From Haloarchaeobius salinus (GTDB lineage: Archaea; Halobacteriota; Halobacteria; Halobacteriales; Natrialbaceae), in the NCBI RefSeq assembly GCF_024464185.1, contig NZ_JANHAU010000008.1, positions 1 through 64,000 on the forward strand: 64,000 nucleotides of DNA, given 5' to 3'. Below are positions 22,679 to 29,969 of this stretch, one piece after another; positions within the stretch are counted from its first letter, which is position 1; each line of letters opens with the position of its first letter. Position numbers and translations under genes: made by a program. The notes beneath the pieces were generated by a model that saw nothing but the letters and a program-made list of their open reading frames with translations, was not told the origin of the DNA and did no database searches.

Positions 22679-23317
22679 TCAGGTGTTCCCGGAGCCGAAC
22701 CGACGCCGGAAGAACCCCGAAAGCGAGTCGAAGTACCCGGAGCCACCGGCGGCCACGATCAGTCCGCCGACCGTGTTGAACAGCATGTCTGTGACGATGT
22801 CGTCGACCCCATAGACGACCAGCGGTGCCTCGATACCGAGTACCTGCGATAGCTGTCCGGTCGAGAACTCGAGGAGCTCCCAGACGACGGAGACAGCGAG
22901 GACGAACACGACGATGAACACGGGACGGACACTGGCCGGGACGTGAAGTTCCTCCGAGTGCTGCTCGAACCCACGGAAGACCGCGTATCCCAGCCCGGCG
23001 ACCACTATCGCTGAGACCGTGTGTGTCACGCTGTCGAACCAGGAGAACCACGTGTACGGGCCGAGCGACCCGAGACTGTGCAGACTGACGGCGATGGTAA
23101 TCCACAGGACCAGCGCGGGACTCATCGTGTACTCGTACTCCCGGCGGATCGCGGCCGGGATCAACGTGAGTGCCAGACCGAACGCGCCGTTGACAGCCAT
23201 CCCCGGACGGAGCGTGACTACCCCGGCGAGGAAGATCCCCACCAGCACGGACTGCAGCAGTCGGGTCAGCAGGCGTTCACTCCGCTCGGAGAGGCCGATA
23301 GACTCGGAGAGCGTCAT
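22679..23317 (-). CDS. Multi-pass membrane protein (DUF2238/YjdF-like)
   Basis: A 212-residue protein with about six membrane segments. The motifs WFDSVTHTVSAIVVAG, VVWELLEFSTGQL and DDIVTDMLFNTVGGLIVA (Asp/His, Trp-Glu, Asp-Asp-Asn within membrane segments) are the pattern of DUF2238/YjdF-type proteins. The start at 23317 overlaps the stop of the upstream gene by 4 nt. Function unknown; the buried polar residues may bind a metal. Confidence 0.75.
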   Translation of the reverse strand: MTLSESIGLSERSERLLTRLLQSVLVGIFLAGVVTLRPGMAVNGAFGLALTLIPAAIRREYEYTMSPALVLWITIAVSLHSLGSLGPYTWFSWFDSVTHTVSAIVVAGLGYAVFRGFEQHSEELHVPASVRPVFIVVFVLAVSVVWELLEFSTGQLSQVLGIEAPLVVYGVDDIVTDMLFNTVGGLIVAAGGSGYFDSLSGFFRRRFGSGNT

Positions 23318-23904
23318 GATGCCTCCTCCGGGACGACTGGTCGGTGACGTGAACCGACGTGTTCGATACGGTCGAAGTACCACATGAAGAGCTGACCCAT
23401 GACCAGACTGACGATCATCACGGTGACGAGGTCCCACTGGAGTTCGGCCTGTGAGTGGATAAACGAGGTGCCGAACCACTGGTCCGAATAGTAGCCGACG
23501 ATCGTCCACCAGGACTGGAAGGCGATAGTCGTCATAACGGCGAACAGCACCGCAAAGCGTCGACTCATCTCCACGTCGGTGAACGAGTCGAGCTCGACGA
23601 CAACCGCGAGCGCGACGGACGAGATGGCGACGTACCCGGTGACCTCCGGGGCGACGCCGAACGTCCGCGCGGTCACTCCGACAGCGACGACCAACCCGAG
23701 TGGCCACGGGAGCATCACACGCCAGTCCCGCCGTAGTACCGCCGGAATCACGAGGATTCCGGCAGCGAACAGTGCGAGCAAACCCCAGAGTAACGGCGTC
23801 ATGAGGAGGCTAACGCCGGCGACCAGGATCACGACACCGACGAAGACCCATCCAAGCGTTGCGTTCGTTGTCACGTTTCGTGCGAGCGAGTGTGTGATAG
23901 GCAT
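23314..23904 (-). CDS. Multi-pass membrane protein, partner of the DUF2238-like gene
   Basis: A 196-residue protein with about six membrane segments. It shares the second half of the motif set: VVELDSFTDVEMSRRFA, then QWDLVTVMIVSLVMGQLFMW. It is coupled to the next gene by an ATGA overlap. Probably a divergent relative or heteromeric partner. No enzymatic motif is evident. Confidence 0.72.
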   Translation of the reverse strand: MPITHSLARNVTTNATLGWVFVGVVILVAGVSLLMTPLLWGLLALFAAGILVIPAVLRRDWRVMLPWPLGLVVAVGVTARTFGVAPEVTGYVAISSVALAVVVELDSFTDVEMSRRFAVLFAVMTTIAFQSWWTIVGYYSDQWFGTSFIHSQAELQWDLVTVMIVSLVMGQLFMWYFDRIEHVGSRHRPVVPEEAS

Positions 23905-23932
23905 TGGTAGCGGGGGTTTTTCTCACGGCCGA

Positions 23933-24931
23933 CTAGTCCAGCGAGAAGATTCCACCCGACGCGGTCAGCCGTGCGACGGTGGAGAGCCGGAACATGTAGG
24001 CGGTCAACACGAGGTAGGGCGCGATGGAGACCGTGAACGCCACCGCCACGAACGGCTGTAGCAGCGGGATGCCGAACATCAACCCACTCGGGATAACCTG
24101 TCCGTTGATCGCGATGATCATCGAGGCGTTGAACAGGATGGCAGGGAGCGCGACAGTCAGCAGCGTCTGGGACAGCTTCGAGACCTCCTTGGTGTAATAC
24201 AGCGTTTTGAAGTACTCCTTCCCGATGGCGAACAGTTCGAACGCATCCATCAGGTCCTCGAAGCGTTCGGCCGAGGTATCGCTGGAGGAAATAATCGTCC
24301 GGGACCCCTCGATGTGTGAGCCGTAGTCGAACCCGAGTCCCTTCCAGAGGATGGCGAATTCAGCGCCGGACGTCTCATCGACTGCCCCGAGCTGTCTGGC
24401 GGCGTCCGAGACCACCCCCGAGTACTCGTCGATCTCCTCGATGAGCTCCTTATCGGCACCGTCCAACTCGTCGGCGAGCGCGTCCGCGCGGGTGCTGATG
24501 ATCCTGGACATGACCGTGAGAAACGACCCGGGGTCGGTCGGGTCCTCTCCGGCGGTGGTCAATTCACTGAGGTCCCGGCGGAAGTTGATCGCGCCCTGGA
24601 CGCGGTCCTCCTGGTTGGTGACGGAACTCATGTCGTGTGAGAGCACGATCGAGTTGATCGAGACGACGATGGAGACCAGGAGGATCATCCCGCTCAGGAA
24701 CGTGTTGAGAATTGTCTGGATAGTAGAGGTGTCCGTCAGCAGCGTCTGCATCTCGAAGGTCCACACCGTGGAGATACCCATGAAGGTCGCGAATACGAAC
24801 GTGAGCAACGCTCCCGTCACTGCCAGCCGGTCCCCCTCGAGCAGGATCCACCGCTTCAGTGCGAATCCGCTGCTCCGACTCGGGACGGGAAACCAGTCCC
24901 GCCAGCGGCTGAACCTCTCGGCGATACTCAT
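23933..24931 (-). CDS. Four-helix membrane protein (paralogue 1 of 3)
   Basis: A 332-residue protein with two membrane segments near the N-terminus (about 35-55 and 75-97), a 150-residue soluble region with predicted helices, and two segments near the C-terminus. The motif ILLVSIVVSINSIVLSHDM followed by DRVQGAINFRRDLSEL recurs in the proteins at 27328 and 28750, with similar spacing and length, so the three form one family. I do not recognise it. It lacks an adjacent DUF4177 partner. It precedes the two DUF2238-like genes on the same strand. Confidence 0.8.
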   Translation of the reverse strand: MSIAERFSRWRDWFPVPSRSSGFALKRWILLEGDRLAVTGALLTFVFATFMGISTVWTFEMQTLLTDTSTIQTILNTFLSGMILLVSIVVSINSIVLSHDMSSVTNQEDRVQGAINFRRDLSELTTAGEDPTDPGSFLTVMSRIISTRADALADELDGADKELIEEIDEYSGVVSDAARQLGAVDETSGAEFAILWKGLGFDYGSHIEGSRTIISSSDTSAERFEDLMDAFELFAIGKEYFKTLYYTKEVSKLSQTLLTVALPAILFNASMIIAINGQVIPSGLMFGIPLLQPFVAVAFTVSIAPYLVLTAYMFRLSTVARLTASGGIFSLD

Positions 24932-25105
24932 GATACCGGCCTCTGAGCGCTACGGCTGGGGGGACTTGCCCGTAATCGAGAATGCATACGATACGGTACG
25001 GTCCACAGCCGCAAAATCTTGCGGGTGTGTACCAAGGATGGTTGCGTACGTGGTGGCGTCGCAGGTCACGCGCCGCACCTCCGTTCACCCGCCGGTGTCG
25101 AAGGT

Positions 25106-26395
25106 CTAGGGCCTGTCACGGAAGAGTGCGAGATGCCGGAGCGCCATCCGATTCTCGGCACCGCCGGCGAGCGAGCCCGACAGCACACCGAGCGTACTGA
25201 TGAACGCCCCAACACGGACAAGGTCGACGAGTCCGACGGTGGGGTCCTCGAGGCTCGGCCAGTTCGTCATCAGGTTCGGTGGGAAGACGGCGAGTTCGAT
25301 CAGGAACATGATCGACCCGACGATGAGGAAGAGCCCCATCATCGCCACGACGAGGATGAGAAACACGGTCACGTTCACCAGTGCCATGTGTTCGGTGAAC
25401 ACCTGGCTGTCTTCTCGCGGGAACGTCAGACGCTGAACGTACAGGAGATGGACTGCGGCAGCGATGATGCTCCCCATCGCGAAGAGCGCAGCGGTACGGT
25501 TGGTCAGGTTCAGCCCGACGTCCCACGCCTCGGCGCTGAACACGAGTATCAGAGCCGGCGTCACCGCGGCCGTCGAGAGGCGAGGTAGTGAGAACGGGAG
25601 CAGCGGTGCGCGACTCTGTATCATTGTCGTGGCGACGATACCCGGATTCCGCACGAGGCTCACCGCGTGAAACGCCAGCCGTCGAAGCCGGCCGCGCGAG
25701 ACATCCGCCTGGGGGATGTGGCTCGCAATCCCGTCGAGATGCTCCGTGACGTCCGCATCGAACGGCGGGACGCTCCGTCGGGACGGGTCGAACGAGAACG
25801 GAGCCATCACCCCGCCATCATTGTGGTCCGCACGGAACACGTGCCCCAGGAGATGAACGAGGAGAGTCGCAGCGTTCCAGCGGACGGCCGGTGAATCGAG
25901 CTCCCGGACCGCCTCACGGTCGTGAGTCTGCAGGAGTCGTCGCGTCGAGACGACGACGACGCGGGCGAGCGGGGAAGCCAGTCCCTCGACGGTTCGCTCT
26001 TCGCGCGTGGTGAGTGGCACATCGGTCACGACGACGACCACGTCGTACGGGCGTTTCGTCATGTGAAGCGCGGCTTCGTCGAGGAACTCCGACGGCCGTC
26101 GGGAAGCACGGTCGGTGAGCGGGGCCGGATCCGCACAATGGACCCGCCACGCTGCGTCCGTGGCTGCCGCCAACTCGTCGACGCCGTCGCGGGCCATCCG
26201 CTCGGCGAACGACCGGAGCGGCTCGACAGCTCCACCAGGTGAGTGCGCGACGAGGACTCCCACGTCAATCCGTGACTCGGCCTCGTCGTCGCGCCAATCA
26301 TACACAGCCGGCTGGTCGGGCTGGTCCGCTGCATCGCCCGCAGGTGCCCCACCGCCTGAGGAGTTCCGTTCGGCGTCGGAGATGTCGTGAGTCAT
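25106..26395 (-). CDS. Membrane protein with metzincin-like domain lacking the catalytic Glu
   Basis: A 429-residue protein. The N-terminal soluble domain (about 40-250) contains HLLGHVFRADH: H181, H185 and H191 have the HxxxHxxxxxH spacing of metzincin proteases, followed by a Met-turn-like GGVMAPF (M197). The glutamate that normally follows the first histidine (HExxH) is Leu. About four membrane segments follow (260-420). A metal may bind, but the usual water-activating base is missing. It sits among membrane genes of unknown function, so its role cannot be set. Confidence 0.82.
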   Translation of the reverse strand: MTHDISDAERNSSGGGAPAGDAADQPDQPAVYDWRDDEAESRIDVGVLVAHSPGGAVEPLRSFAERMARDGVDELAAATDAAWRVHCADPAPLTDRASRRPSEFLDEAALHMTKRPYDVVVVVTDVPLTTREERTVEGLASPLARVVVVSTRRLLQTHDREAVRELDSPAVRWNAATLLVHLLGHVFRADHNDGGVMAPFSFDPSRRSVPPFDADVTEHLDGIASHIPQADVSRGRLRRLAFHAVSLVRNPGIVATTMIQSRAPLLPFSLPRLSTAAVTPALILVFSAEAWDVGLNLTNRTAALFAMGSIIAAAVHLLYVQRLTFPREDSQVFTEHMALVNVTVFLILVVAMMGLFLIVGSIMFLIELAVFPPNLMTNWPSLEDPTVGLVDLVRVGAFISTLGVLSGSLAGGAENRMALRHLALFRDRP

Positions 26396-26425
26396 CGTCT
26401 GAATGTCTACTAGTGCCGGGCAGAC

Positions 26426-27175
26426 TCACAGATACGCATCGTCCCACTCGTCGGCCAGGTGAGAGTTGCCACAGTCCCCGCACTCGAGTCGGTCCTGCCC
26501 GTCGGCGGAGACGTTCGTGCTGCCACACTGTGAACAGAAGTAGCCGTACGCGTCCTCCTCGTCCTCCGCAGCGTACACCGGGAAGAACGGGGCCTCCCTG
26601 CCGGGAATGCTCTCGTCGCGGTCGAGGGGTCGGTCGACCCCGTCGACGGTGACGGACGCAGGGACGGCGACGGTGGGTTCGGACGATGTCTCCGTCCCTT
26701 GACCCTCGGCGAACATGGTGACACCGAACTCCTCCCCGCCGACCATGATCCGGTCGTGGCCGCTCTCTTTGAGGCCGAACCCCTTGAGGAACTCGCCGCC
26801 CTCGACAGCATCCTCGAGCACAGACGCCGCAATCGGCCTCTCGACGAACTCCTCGCGAACGCGATCGATCAGTGCCGTGGCGATGCCCCTGCCCCGCGAC
26901 TCCGGGTCTACGTGGAGCCACCGGATAGTCGCTCGTGTTCCGACTTCGACGGTGATGAACCCGGCAACCGTCGTTGTGTCGTCGACCGTCTCGTCGACGA
27001 CGAGCACCGTCGTATCAGGGTCGGTGAGCAGGTCTTCCAGAGACGTATCGTCGAACTCCTGTTCGAGTATCGTCTCGATCTGCTGAGGGCTGAGCGAGTA
27101 CGACGATTGCAGGGAGTCGCGCGCTATCGCTCTGATACGTTCCCGGTCGTCGGACTCCGCTGGGCGAACCTCCAT
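26426..27175 (-). CDS. GNAT N-acetyltransferase with C-terminal zinc ribbon
   Basis: A 249-residue cytosolic protein. The GNAT domain (about 1-150) has the acetyl-CoA loop VDPESRGRGIATALIDRV after the beta strand ATIRWLHV. A linker of about 50 residues follows, then a zinc ribbon near 215-240 with FCSQCG and LECGDCG. The substrate is unknown; the ribbon may direct it to a nucleic acid or protein. It lies just upstream of the metzincin-like gene on the same strand. Confidence 0.9.
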   Translation of the reverse strand: MEVRPAESDDRERIRAIARDSLQSSYSLSPQQIETILEQEFDDTSLEDLLTDPDTTVLVVDETVDDTTTVAGFITVEVGTRATIRWLHVDPESRGRGIATALIDRVREEFVERPIAASVLEDAVEGGEFLKGFGLKESGHDRIMVGGEEFGVTMFAEGQGTETSSEPTVAVPASVTVDGVDRPLDRDESIPGREAPFFPVYAAEDEEDAYGYFCSQCGSTNVSADGQDRLECGDCGNSHLADEWDDAYL

Positions 27176-27327
27176 ACGGTATGTTATCGTCGAACAGGGA
27201 TAAGTCGTCGCCCGGTCCGTTCGTCGACGGTGGTCGGAGCGTGCCTCGTGGCGTCGAACGCCCGGGAACCCACCGTCCCGAACGACGCTGGCGACCGGCG
27301 CAGTTCGCGTGTGAACGTGGGAGTCGA

Positions 27328-28323
27328 TCAGCTGAGCATGAGCGGTCCCATCGAGAGCGTCTGCTTGGCGAGCGTCGCGAGCCGCAGGATGTAGGCCGCG
27401 AACAGGAGGAATGGTAGCGTCGAGACGGCAAACGCAGCGCTAACGACCCAGAGAATGCTCTCGATGCCGAGGAACGTGCCGGTGAACGTCGTCGCGTCGA
27501 CGAAGACGACCATCCCCCCAGCGACGGTGAACGCGATAACTGCGGCGTACAGGATGGCTCGTGAGAGTTTCACCAGTGCCCACTGGATGTAGAGGTCCTT
27601 GACGTACTCGCGGACCACCCCGTACATCGTAAGTGCCTCGAGCAGATCCCTGAACGCGGTCCGTTCCGCGTCGGTGAGGGAGTCCTCGTACGCCATCCCC
27701 AGCCGGCGAACGTCGTGCATCTTCCGGTCGTAGCTGTAGTCGAGTGCGGGAGAGACGACGTCGAAGGTACCGAAATCCGTGTCTTCGAGGTGGCCGCGTG
27801 CGTGGTCTGCGTTCTCCAACAGGTCGGTGACGTACTCGTCCACCTTCCTGTAGAGCTCCTGGTTTCCAGTTTCGGAGACGGTGTCTCGCAGTATCTTCGC
27901 TCGCTGTTCGCTCGTTTCGATGAGTGCGTCGAGGTAGTCCGCAGGGTCGGCGGGCGTCGTCGTCCCGAGGAGGCTGTCGGTGTTCTGGCGGAAGTCCATC
28001 GTCACGTCCATCCGACCGCGTTGTTCGCCGAGGGAGCCGATTTCCTGGGAGAGGACGAGCTGATTGATCGTGACGACGAGCGTCGTTCCGGTGATGATCG
28101 CGCCGACGAGACCGGCGAACACCGTCTCAATCATGTCGCTCGACTGCATGGTAGAGAGCAACGACACCGGCTTCAGCACGCCCCAGATCATGAACACGAG
28201 GAAGATCAGGAACGCGAGCGCGCCAGCGACGACCCACCGGTTAGCCCCGAGCAGCAACCAGAACCAGTACTTGTTGACGTCCGTCCGTTCACGTAGCGTG
28301 CTGTCCGTCGAGAAGTCACTCAT
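27328..28323 (-). CDS. Four-helix membrane protein (paralogue 2 of 3)
   Basis: A 331-residue protein with membrane segments at about 20-45, 60-85 and two near the C-terminus. TGTTLVVTINQLVLSQEIG then MDVTMDFRQNTDSLLGTT is the family core also seen at 28750 and, diverged, at 23933. The start at 28323 (MSDFSTDSTL) overlaps the DUF4177 gene by 8 nt, so the two are coupled. Unknown function; topology suggests a membrane scaffold or channel with a cytosolic helical domain. Confidence 0.82.
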   Translation of the reverse strand: MSDFSTDSTLRERTDVNKYWFWLLLGANRWVVAGALAFLIFLVFMIWGVLKPVSLLSTMQSSDMIETVFAGLVGAIITGTTLVVTINQLVLSQEIGSLGEQRGRMDVTMDFRQNTDSLLGTTTPADPADYLDALIETSEQRAKILRDTVSETGNQELYRKVDEYVTDLLENADHARGHLEDTDFGTFDVVSPALDYSYDRKMHDVRRLGMAYEDSLTDAERTAFRDLLEALTMYGVVREYVKDLYIQWALVKLSRAILYAAVIAFTVAGGMVVFVDATTFTGTFLGIESILWVVSAAFAVSTLPFLLFAAYILRLATLAKQTLSMGPLMLS

Positions 28324-28513
28324 GAGAGACTGGGCGTTTGAACAGCAGTAGTTTCGTGCCGCCACCGTCGTAGCTGATAGTCCCTGTGAGTTCCCAGCCC
28401 GCTGCACCGAGCCGGTTGAGTTCGTCCGTCGGATCGACCGTCTCCCGCTTGGTCAGGCCCTTCGGCGGTTCGAGCGTCTTGTACTCCCATTGCTGGTGCA
28501 TTTCGGTTCCCAT
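28316..28513 (-). CDS. DUF4177 small protein
   Basis: A 65-residue soluble protein: WEYKTLEPP, DELNRLGAAGWELTG and GGGTKLLLFKRP. This is the complete DUF4177 fold, found in short bacterial and archaeal proteins of unknown function. It overlaps the downstream membrane gene by 8 nt. The same pairing is repeated at 29763-29969 with 28750-29766, so the DUF4177 protein is probably a soluble subunit of the membrane protein. Confidence 0.85.
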   Translation of the reverse strand: MGTEMHQQWEYKTLEPPKGLTKRETVDPTDELNRLGAAGWELTGTISYDGGGTKLLLFKRPVSHE

Positions 28514-28749
28514 GATTCGTATTCGTCTCTCAGGGTGATGACTCTGCTGACGAGCCGCTTCTCGCCGTGTACTGATTGAGAACGGAGCGGTGTGCTCGTG
28601 CTTCGTGCATCTGGCAGTTCGAATTACTCACGAAACAGACTCTCCGATGGGACCACCGATTCCCACCCGAGTCGGCTCTGGTGTTCGAGACCCGGGTCGG
28701 GAACAATAGATTGGAATCCCAGACGGGAGCCAGGCGGAACTGTAACGCC

Positions 28750-29766
28750 TCAGCGCTGGGATCCGCGGAGGAGCAGCGGCTCGATGGCGAGTGTCCGTTT
28801 CGCGATGGTGAGGATGCGAAGGACGTACGAGACGAACAGCATGAATGGAACGAGCGTCACCGCAAACGCACCGCCCACGACGAGGATGATGTGATCGAAA
28901 CCGAGTGTGCTTCCCGGGAACGTCCCCGCATCGACGATCGCAACCATGATACCCGCAACGGCCACTGCCGGGACTGCAGCATAGAGGATCATCTGAGACA
29001 GGCTGATGAGTGCCCACTGGAAGTACAGCGTCTTGATGTGTTCCCGCGCCGGGCCAAAAAGGGACAGCGCTGTTTTGAGGTCGTCTAGCAAGCCGTGTTC
29101 TTCCTCGGTGAGGCTCTCTTCGTATTCGTGGGCGAGCCGTTCAACTTGGAAGATTTTCCAGCTATAGTTGAAATTCAGTGCGGCGAATAACACATCGAAC
29201 GTGCCGAACTGCGCTCCGTCGAGTTGGTCACGTACCGCGCCAGCGTTCCCAGTGACGCTCTCAGTGAATTCATCGACCTCATCTCGGAGGTCCTCATCAG
29301 CGTTCTCGCCAATAGACTCTCGAAGAGCCGTGGCTCGTTGTGCCGTGACCCCGATGATCTGCCTGAGGAATTCGGATGGATCGGCAGGACTCGGAGCCCC
29401 GATCAATTCTTCGGTGAAGTCCCGGAAATCCATCGAACTGGCCATGCGCTCGCGTTGGTCGCCGAGCGGGCCGTTCTCCTGAGTGAGGACGAGCTGACCG
29501 ATCGTGACGACGAGCGTCGTCCCAGTCACGATGACCGTGATCATCGTCGAGAACATCGTGTCGATCATGTCGCCGGACTCGATCTGCAGTGAAAACGGTG
29601 GATGGAGGACAGTAACGGCGATAACGAACACGACGAACACGGCACAGGTCAGGACACTGGAGACGAGAAGGCGGTTCGCGCGAAGCAGCACCCAGAGTCT
29701 TATCCGACTCCCCCCAGTGCGCTCACGCATCGTGTTGGCCGTACTGATGTCGGTCTCGTCAGTCAT
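28750..29766 (-). CDS. Four-helix membrane protein (paralogue 3 of 3)
   Basis: A 338-residue protein with membrane segments at about 25-52 and 62-85, and two in the last 90 residues. Its core TGTTLVVTIGQLVLTQENG and MASSMDFRDFTEELIG align directly with the gene at 27328. It overlaps the DUF4177 gene at 29763 by 4 nt. The two membrane/DUF4177 pairs look like a tandem duplication. Unknown function. Confidence 0.82.
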   Translation of the reverse strand: MTDETDISTANTMRERTGGSRIRLWVLLRANRLLVSSVLTCAVFVVFVIAVTVLHPPFSLQIESGDMIDTMFSTMITVIVTGTTLVVTIGQLVLTQENGPLGDQRERMASSMDFRDFTEELIGAPSPADPSEFLRQIIGVTAQRATALRESIGENADEDLRDEVDEFTESVTGNAGAVRDQLDGAQFGTFDVLFAALNFNYSWKIFQVERLAHEYEESLTEEEHGLLDDLKTALSLFGPAREHIKTLYFQWALISLSQMILYAAVPAVAVAGIMVAIVDAGTFPGSTLGFDHIILVVGGAFAVTLVPFMLFVSYVLRILTIAKRTLAIEPLLLRGSQR

Positions 29767-29969
29767 ACTGGCTCACCTGACCGGGCAGGTCGCTTGAATA
29801 CGAGGTACTTCGTGCCGCCTCCCTCGTAGTCGATTGTCTCCACAAACTCCCAGCCCTCCGCACCGAATTGGTTCAGCTCCGCTTTCGGGTCCTCTGCTTC
29901 TTTTTGGGTCTCATCGCGTGGCGGGCGAAGCGTCTGGTACTCCCAGCGGGTCGTTTCTGATTCGGACAT
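29763..29969 (-). CDS. DUF4177 small protein
   Basis: A 68-residue protein starting MSESETTRWEYQTLRPP, with AELNQFGAEGWEFVE and GGGTKYLVFKRPA. It is a paralogue of the protein at 28316. The start at 29969 aligns with that paralogue; the frame continues upstream without family signal. The ATGA overlap couples it to the membrane gene. Probable soluble partner. Confidence 0.85.
   Translation of the reverse strand: MSESETTRWEYQTLRPPRDETQKEAEDPKAELNQFGAEGWEFVETIDYEGGGTKYLVFKRPARSGEPV

Follow-up and report, generated by a model that had tools for sequence, protein, structure and literature searches.

Which of the neighbouring genes at this locus belong together, and what might a small soluble protein do for the membrane protein encoded next to it? 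The window, the whole stretch of 64,000 nucleotides that was analysed, comes from contig 8 of a haloarchaeal genome (G000), and the original prediction had read its positions 22679 to 29969 as a possible undescribed membrane system, with a soluble-plus-membrane complex duplicated in tandem. Two gene pairs are found here on the minus strand. In the first, a 68-aa small protein of the Sp36 family (H-type, 29763..29969, DUF4177-like) is followed by a 338-aa four-TM membrane protein (H-type, 28750..29766), with a 4-base overlap (ATGA) between the ATG of the latter and the stop codon of the former. In the second, a 65-aa Sp36-family protein (F-type, 28316..28513) precedes a 331-aa four-TM protein (F-type, 27328..28323) with an 8-base overlap, the start of the latter gene being the ATG at 28323 and not the GTG at 28407. 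A distant paralogue without an Sp36 partner is encoded on the same strand at 23933..24931. Its product is 27-28% identical to those of 27328 and 28750 and is a member of the four-TM family outside the pair module. All three membrane proteins are homologous and have four TMs, as had been predicted.

Each small gene does overlap a paralogue, and it is the name given to the small proteins, DUF4177, that does not hold. Both match DUF4177 (PF13783) only weakly, with 24.0 bits for the 29763-29969 product and 23.2 bits for the other, under the gathering score of 25. The profile NF053529 ('Sp36') fits better: the 29763-29969 product scores 61.5 bits, above the curated cut-off of 50, and the 28316-28513 product, an F-type homologue 52-54% identical to the H-type Sp36, scores 46.8 bits, just under it. 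Judging from these scores, both proteins are better classed in the sP36 family. The AF2 model of Sp36 is moderate (pLDDT 66), and a fold search with it found no significant match. Two signatures were tried for the linked copies, PP..T..E..DP and the looser DP...GGTK, which missed 12 and 9 of them, respectively, and such signatures are only descriptive.

The membrane family occurs in 274 of the 292 sampled Halobacteria genomes (94%), the four-TM partner being annotated by NCBI as 'hypothetical protein'. The four-TM protein found no reliable match in Pfam, NCBIfam, PHROGs or PADLOC, a Pfam scan of 37 members gave nothing consistent above the cut-off, and searches of the PDB by sequence, the PDB by fold and a viral fold library returned nothing below E 0.001. 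DUF2254 (PF10011) resembles the family in its four TMs and a V.QLV.S motif at a TM end, and 2 of the 37 members match it (best E 0.014). This kinship was rejected, the HHalign probability being 6% and the motif remaining unaligned. AF2 modelled the 27328 protein (pLDDT 80, pTM 0.72) with two TM helices, then a helical domain of about 145 aa, then two more TM helices. K/R residues are depleted in the two short loops between TM helices (0.063 and 0.002 per residue) compared with 0.10-0.135 in the N-terminus, central domain and C-terminus, a pattern that places these three segments in the cytosol. It supports an N-in/C-in protein with a cytosolic central domain. Since no Pfam family, PDB sequence or fold, or viral fold was matched, the description of the protein as most plausibly a channel or transporter is based on topology and analogy. 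One four-TM homologue was seen outside the order (L104, in G309), in another family of the same phylum, and is a possible transfer or contamination.

The pairing itself is far beyond chance. Among 99 loci of sampled Halobacteria centred on Sp36 matches (neither exhaustive nor random, as they comprise the 30 best matches, further listed ones and some deliberately weak ones), 90 of the 99 intact focal Sp36 genes are directly followed by a four-TM gene of the same orientation, at a distance of 478 bases in one case (L159). The remaining nine are unlinked (L139-141, L145-147, L195, L200 and L206), and other unlinked matches outside the 99 are, by our own sorting, pairs cut by the locus edge or weak fragments. 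In a separate scan of named genomes, biased to close relatives, Sp36 immediately precedes a four-TM gene in 77 of the 80 best hits. The co-occurrence of small protein and membrane family, which the original prediction had made its own test, is thus almost obligate in both sets. Overlaps are present in 106 of 123 non-redundant pairs, with a gap of exactly -4 in 50 and of -8 in another 50; start codons were assigned by rule, and single values may be off. The same locus data hold 68 four-TM genes without Sp36. Natural fusions of the two proteins were searched for and none was found. At L206 (711-1974, plus strand) the order is reversed, a four-TM gene being followed by an overlapping Sp36 gene, and a four-TM remnant adjoins on the other strand. 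Five of the unlinked loci (L139-L141, L145 and L146) hold a solitary haloarchaeal Sp36 subtype with neither the DP...GG[TS]K signature nor a four-TM neighbour; it is perhaps this subtype that truly corresponds to the M. mazei sP36.

Does the module extend to the other genes of the cluster? Only the Sp36–four-TM pair recurs in all 21 neighbourhoods (about 20 kb each); HTH_10 regulators recur in 8 of them, DUF2270 in 4 and AI-2E in 4. The GNAT gene of the window was confirmed (GNAT and DUF5816 domains), and like the DUF2238-like genes it shows only isolated co-occurrence with the pair. The metzincin-like gene (25106-26395, minus strand) was detected in 7 of 59 genomes, in two of them weakly, and was absent from the neighbourhoods retrieved around four-TM genes. 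Its product has an archaemetzincin-like N-terminal domain, with a weak similarity of 25 bits versus a cut-off of 145, and C-terminal TM helices. Its motif reads HLLGHVFRADH, the catalytic Glu of HExxH being replaced, and it is probably an inactive membrane-anchored protease relative. Of the two coupled membrane proteins that had both been called DUF2238-like, only the first carries a DUF2238 signal, and this is 17.3 bits versus a cut-off of 26.4. Their coupling is real: the first gene starts at 23317 and not at 23707, and an ATGA overlap joins it (22679-23317) to the second (23314-23904). At L147 (1308-3261) and L200 (1711-3749), relatives of this coupled pair are neighbours of a small dodecin-like gene and of a solitary Sp36 that belongs to another sequence subtype. 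We also considered one shared functional island comprising DUF2270, AI-2E, GCS2-like, GNAT and metzincin-like genes, and rejected it, as its members recur in some neighbourhoods only. The neighbourhood comparison thus upholds the association of Sp36 with the four-TM protein; the GNAT, metzincin-like and DUF2238-like genes are bystanders, and a single membrane system across the whole cluster is unsupported.

The history of the pair can be read from a tree of 119 four-TM proteins. All Sp36-linked members fall in one clade (50 linked and 7 orphans lacking an adjacent Sp36; SH-aLRT 99), and the linkage state has to change 4 times on the tree versus 38 in shuffles. The simplest reading would be one recruitment of Sp36 followed by about three losses. 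Well outside the linked clade, the 23933 protein groups only with orphans, in a clade of 8 rows where Sp36 is never present in the sample, which also speaks against its inclusion in one system with the pairs. The paired four-TM proteins of the window lie in two deep branches of the linked clade, F and H, and each of them shares about 90% identity with its orthologues from other genera versus 47-48% between the two. To speak of a tandem duplication is therefore misleading; F and H are ancient paralogues and not a recent tandem copy. Distances among Sp36 proteins follow those among their four-TM partners (Mantel r 0.77, a value reached in none of 1000 permutations), and the nearest Sp36 is of the same type, F or H, in all 123 cases when pairs with closely similar four-TM partners are left out. 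Part of the Mantel correlation stems from the common history of the species; this applies less to the F/H result, since genomes such as that of the window have both types unswapped. The two genes could in principle be co-transcribed without any physical contact of their products, but the strict order, the recurrent -4/-8 overlap and the type-specific co-divergence over many genera make this highly improbable.

A self-contained two-gene unit found in variable contexts, in several copies per genome and on plasmids (pairs, sometimes several, are carried by Haladaptatus and Haloarcula plasmids NZ_CP085341.1, NZ_CP085339.1 and CP050016.1) could also be a toxin-antitoxin or phage-defence module, in which a membrane effector is held off by a small immunity protein. 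However, PADLOC gave no match for any of the 10 cluster proteins, and no pair was seen in IMG/VR viral contigs. Moreover, the four-TM gene was kept through the losses of Sp36 in the linked clade, and four-TM paralogues are present in nearly all haloarchaea, about half of which have no Sp36. We consider such a module quite unlikely.

The function of the only characterised relative raises a different alternative. The M. mazei sP36 is hexameric, binds both AmtB1 and the PII protein GlnK1, and is required for these two to interact (PMC10714827). It is a condition-dependent adaptor that goes to the membrane on nitrogen upshift, and its authors propose an ancient control of AmtB, halophile homologues included (PMC10714827). 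The haloarchaeal Sp36 could still be a PII/AmtB adaptor for ammonium control, with the four-TM gene as a passenger or extra partner, and this homology would fit, as would the presence of Amt in 278 of the 292 genomes, including that of the window, which also has PII. Yet Sp36 is present in only 134 of the 292, most Amt-bearing genomes being without it, and its pairing is with the four-TM gene, neither amt nor glnK having been noticed next to it. Five of the 14 Amt-less genomes also have Sp36–four-TM pairs, namely G047 (locus L166), G090 (L197), G157 (L179), G235 (L022 and L144) and G252 (L182 and L205), and no PII was detectable in any of these five. Some of these assemblies are fragmented (94-99% complete), and a gap could account for any single absence; all five together, among them a one-contig and a three-contig assembly, are hard to explain in this way. 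The haloarchaeal pair therefore needs neither of them, and AmtB and PII are not obligatory partners, which is compatible with additional PII contacts elsewhere. We find it very unlikely that ammonium control is the role of this Sp36.

Sp36 is soluble, encoded first and coupled to the membrane gene, and its M. mazei relative binds both AmtB1 and GlnK1. For these reasons we propose Sp36 as a dedicated cytosolic regulatory or assembly subunit of the four-TM membrane protein, perhaps a channel or transporter, and consider this proposal rather probable. Through translational coupling, both proteins would be synthesised together. Sp36 may form a small oligomer, by analogy with the M. mazei hexamer, and could dock on the cytosolic domain or tails of the four-TM protein, which it would then switch or stabilise. 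We infer that the two bind each other physically, and likewise infer the oligomeric state, the direction of regulation and the transport activity. The coupling with the small gene first and the partner specificity are just as expected of a chaperone or structural subunit, and Sp36 could be mainly an assembly or stability chaperone rather than an activity switch. We think this unlikely, since the M. mazei protein behaves as a condition-dependent adaptor, going to the membrane on nitrogen upshift (PMC10714827), and orphan four-TM paralogues, including the losses inside the linked clade, exist without Sp36.

Within the literature searched, which had most subscription journals and preprints outside its scope, no description of the Sp36–four-TM pair was found. 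The sP36 family is known, but no account of its haloarchaeal partner, of the coupling or of the four-TM family seems to exist there. The sole characterised sP36 has been read as an ancient archaeal switch-off of ammonium import, with halophile homologues cited in support. This reading cannot hold for all homologues, since the main haloarchaeal branch is tied to another membrane protein and persists where Amt and PII are missing. Tentatively, the four-TM proteins could be a new haloarchaeal channel or transporter family of which one clade acquired its own sP36 gating subunit, and sP36 proteins could be general plug-in regulators of membrane proteins, not specific to ammonium. The pair gives a first partner, and with it a testable handle, for an unannotated membrane family of almost all haloarchaeal genomes sampled.

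Among known systems, the GlnK(PII)-AmtB operon pairs offer a works-like analogy only: a small soluble regulator gene adjoins the gene of the membrane protein that it controls, but Sp36 and the four-TM protein show no homology to PII or Amt in the scans, and the gene order and overlap differ. The likeness to the M. mazei sP36 is one of family, since both are small WEY...LN..G..GWEL...KRP proteins recognised by the same profile (NF053529), whose cut-off the haloarchaeal H-type passes. On the other hand, the haloarchaeal proteins are about 30% identical to the aligned methanogen sP36 and have a PP[RK]..T.KEA.DP loop and a GGGTK turn, both absent from the aligned methanogen copies. Because of this low identity, the extra loop and the turn, their binding mode and hexamerisation may be different. 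The haloarchaeal Sp36 gene is in an operon with the four-TM gene, whereas most of the 20 sampled methanogen copies have no conserved membrane-gene neighbour. At two Methanosarcinaceae-like loci (L230:678-2120 and L232:515-2120, both on the minus strand), a second sP36 paralogue immediately precedes a 9-TM gene resembling the AI-2E transporter family (named by eye), which again suggests that sP36 proteins have a variety of membrane proteins as partners.
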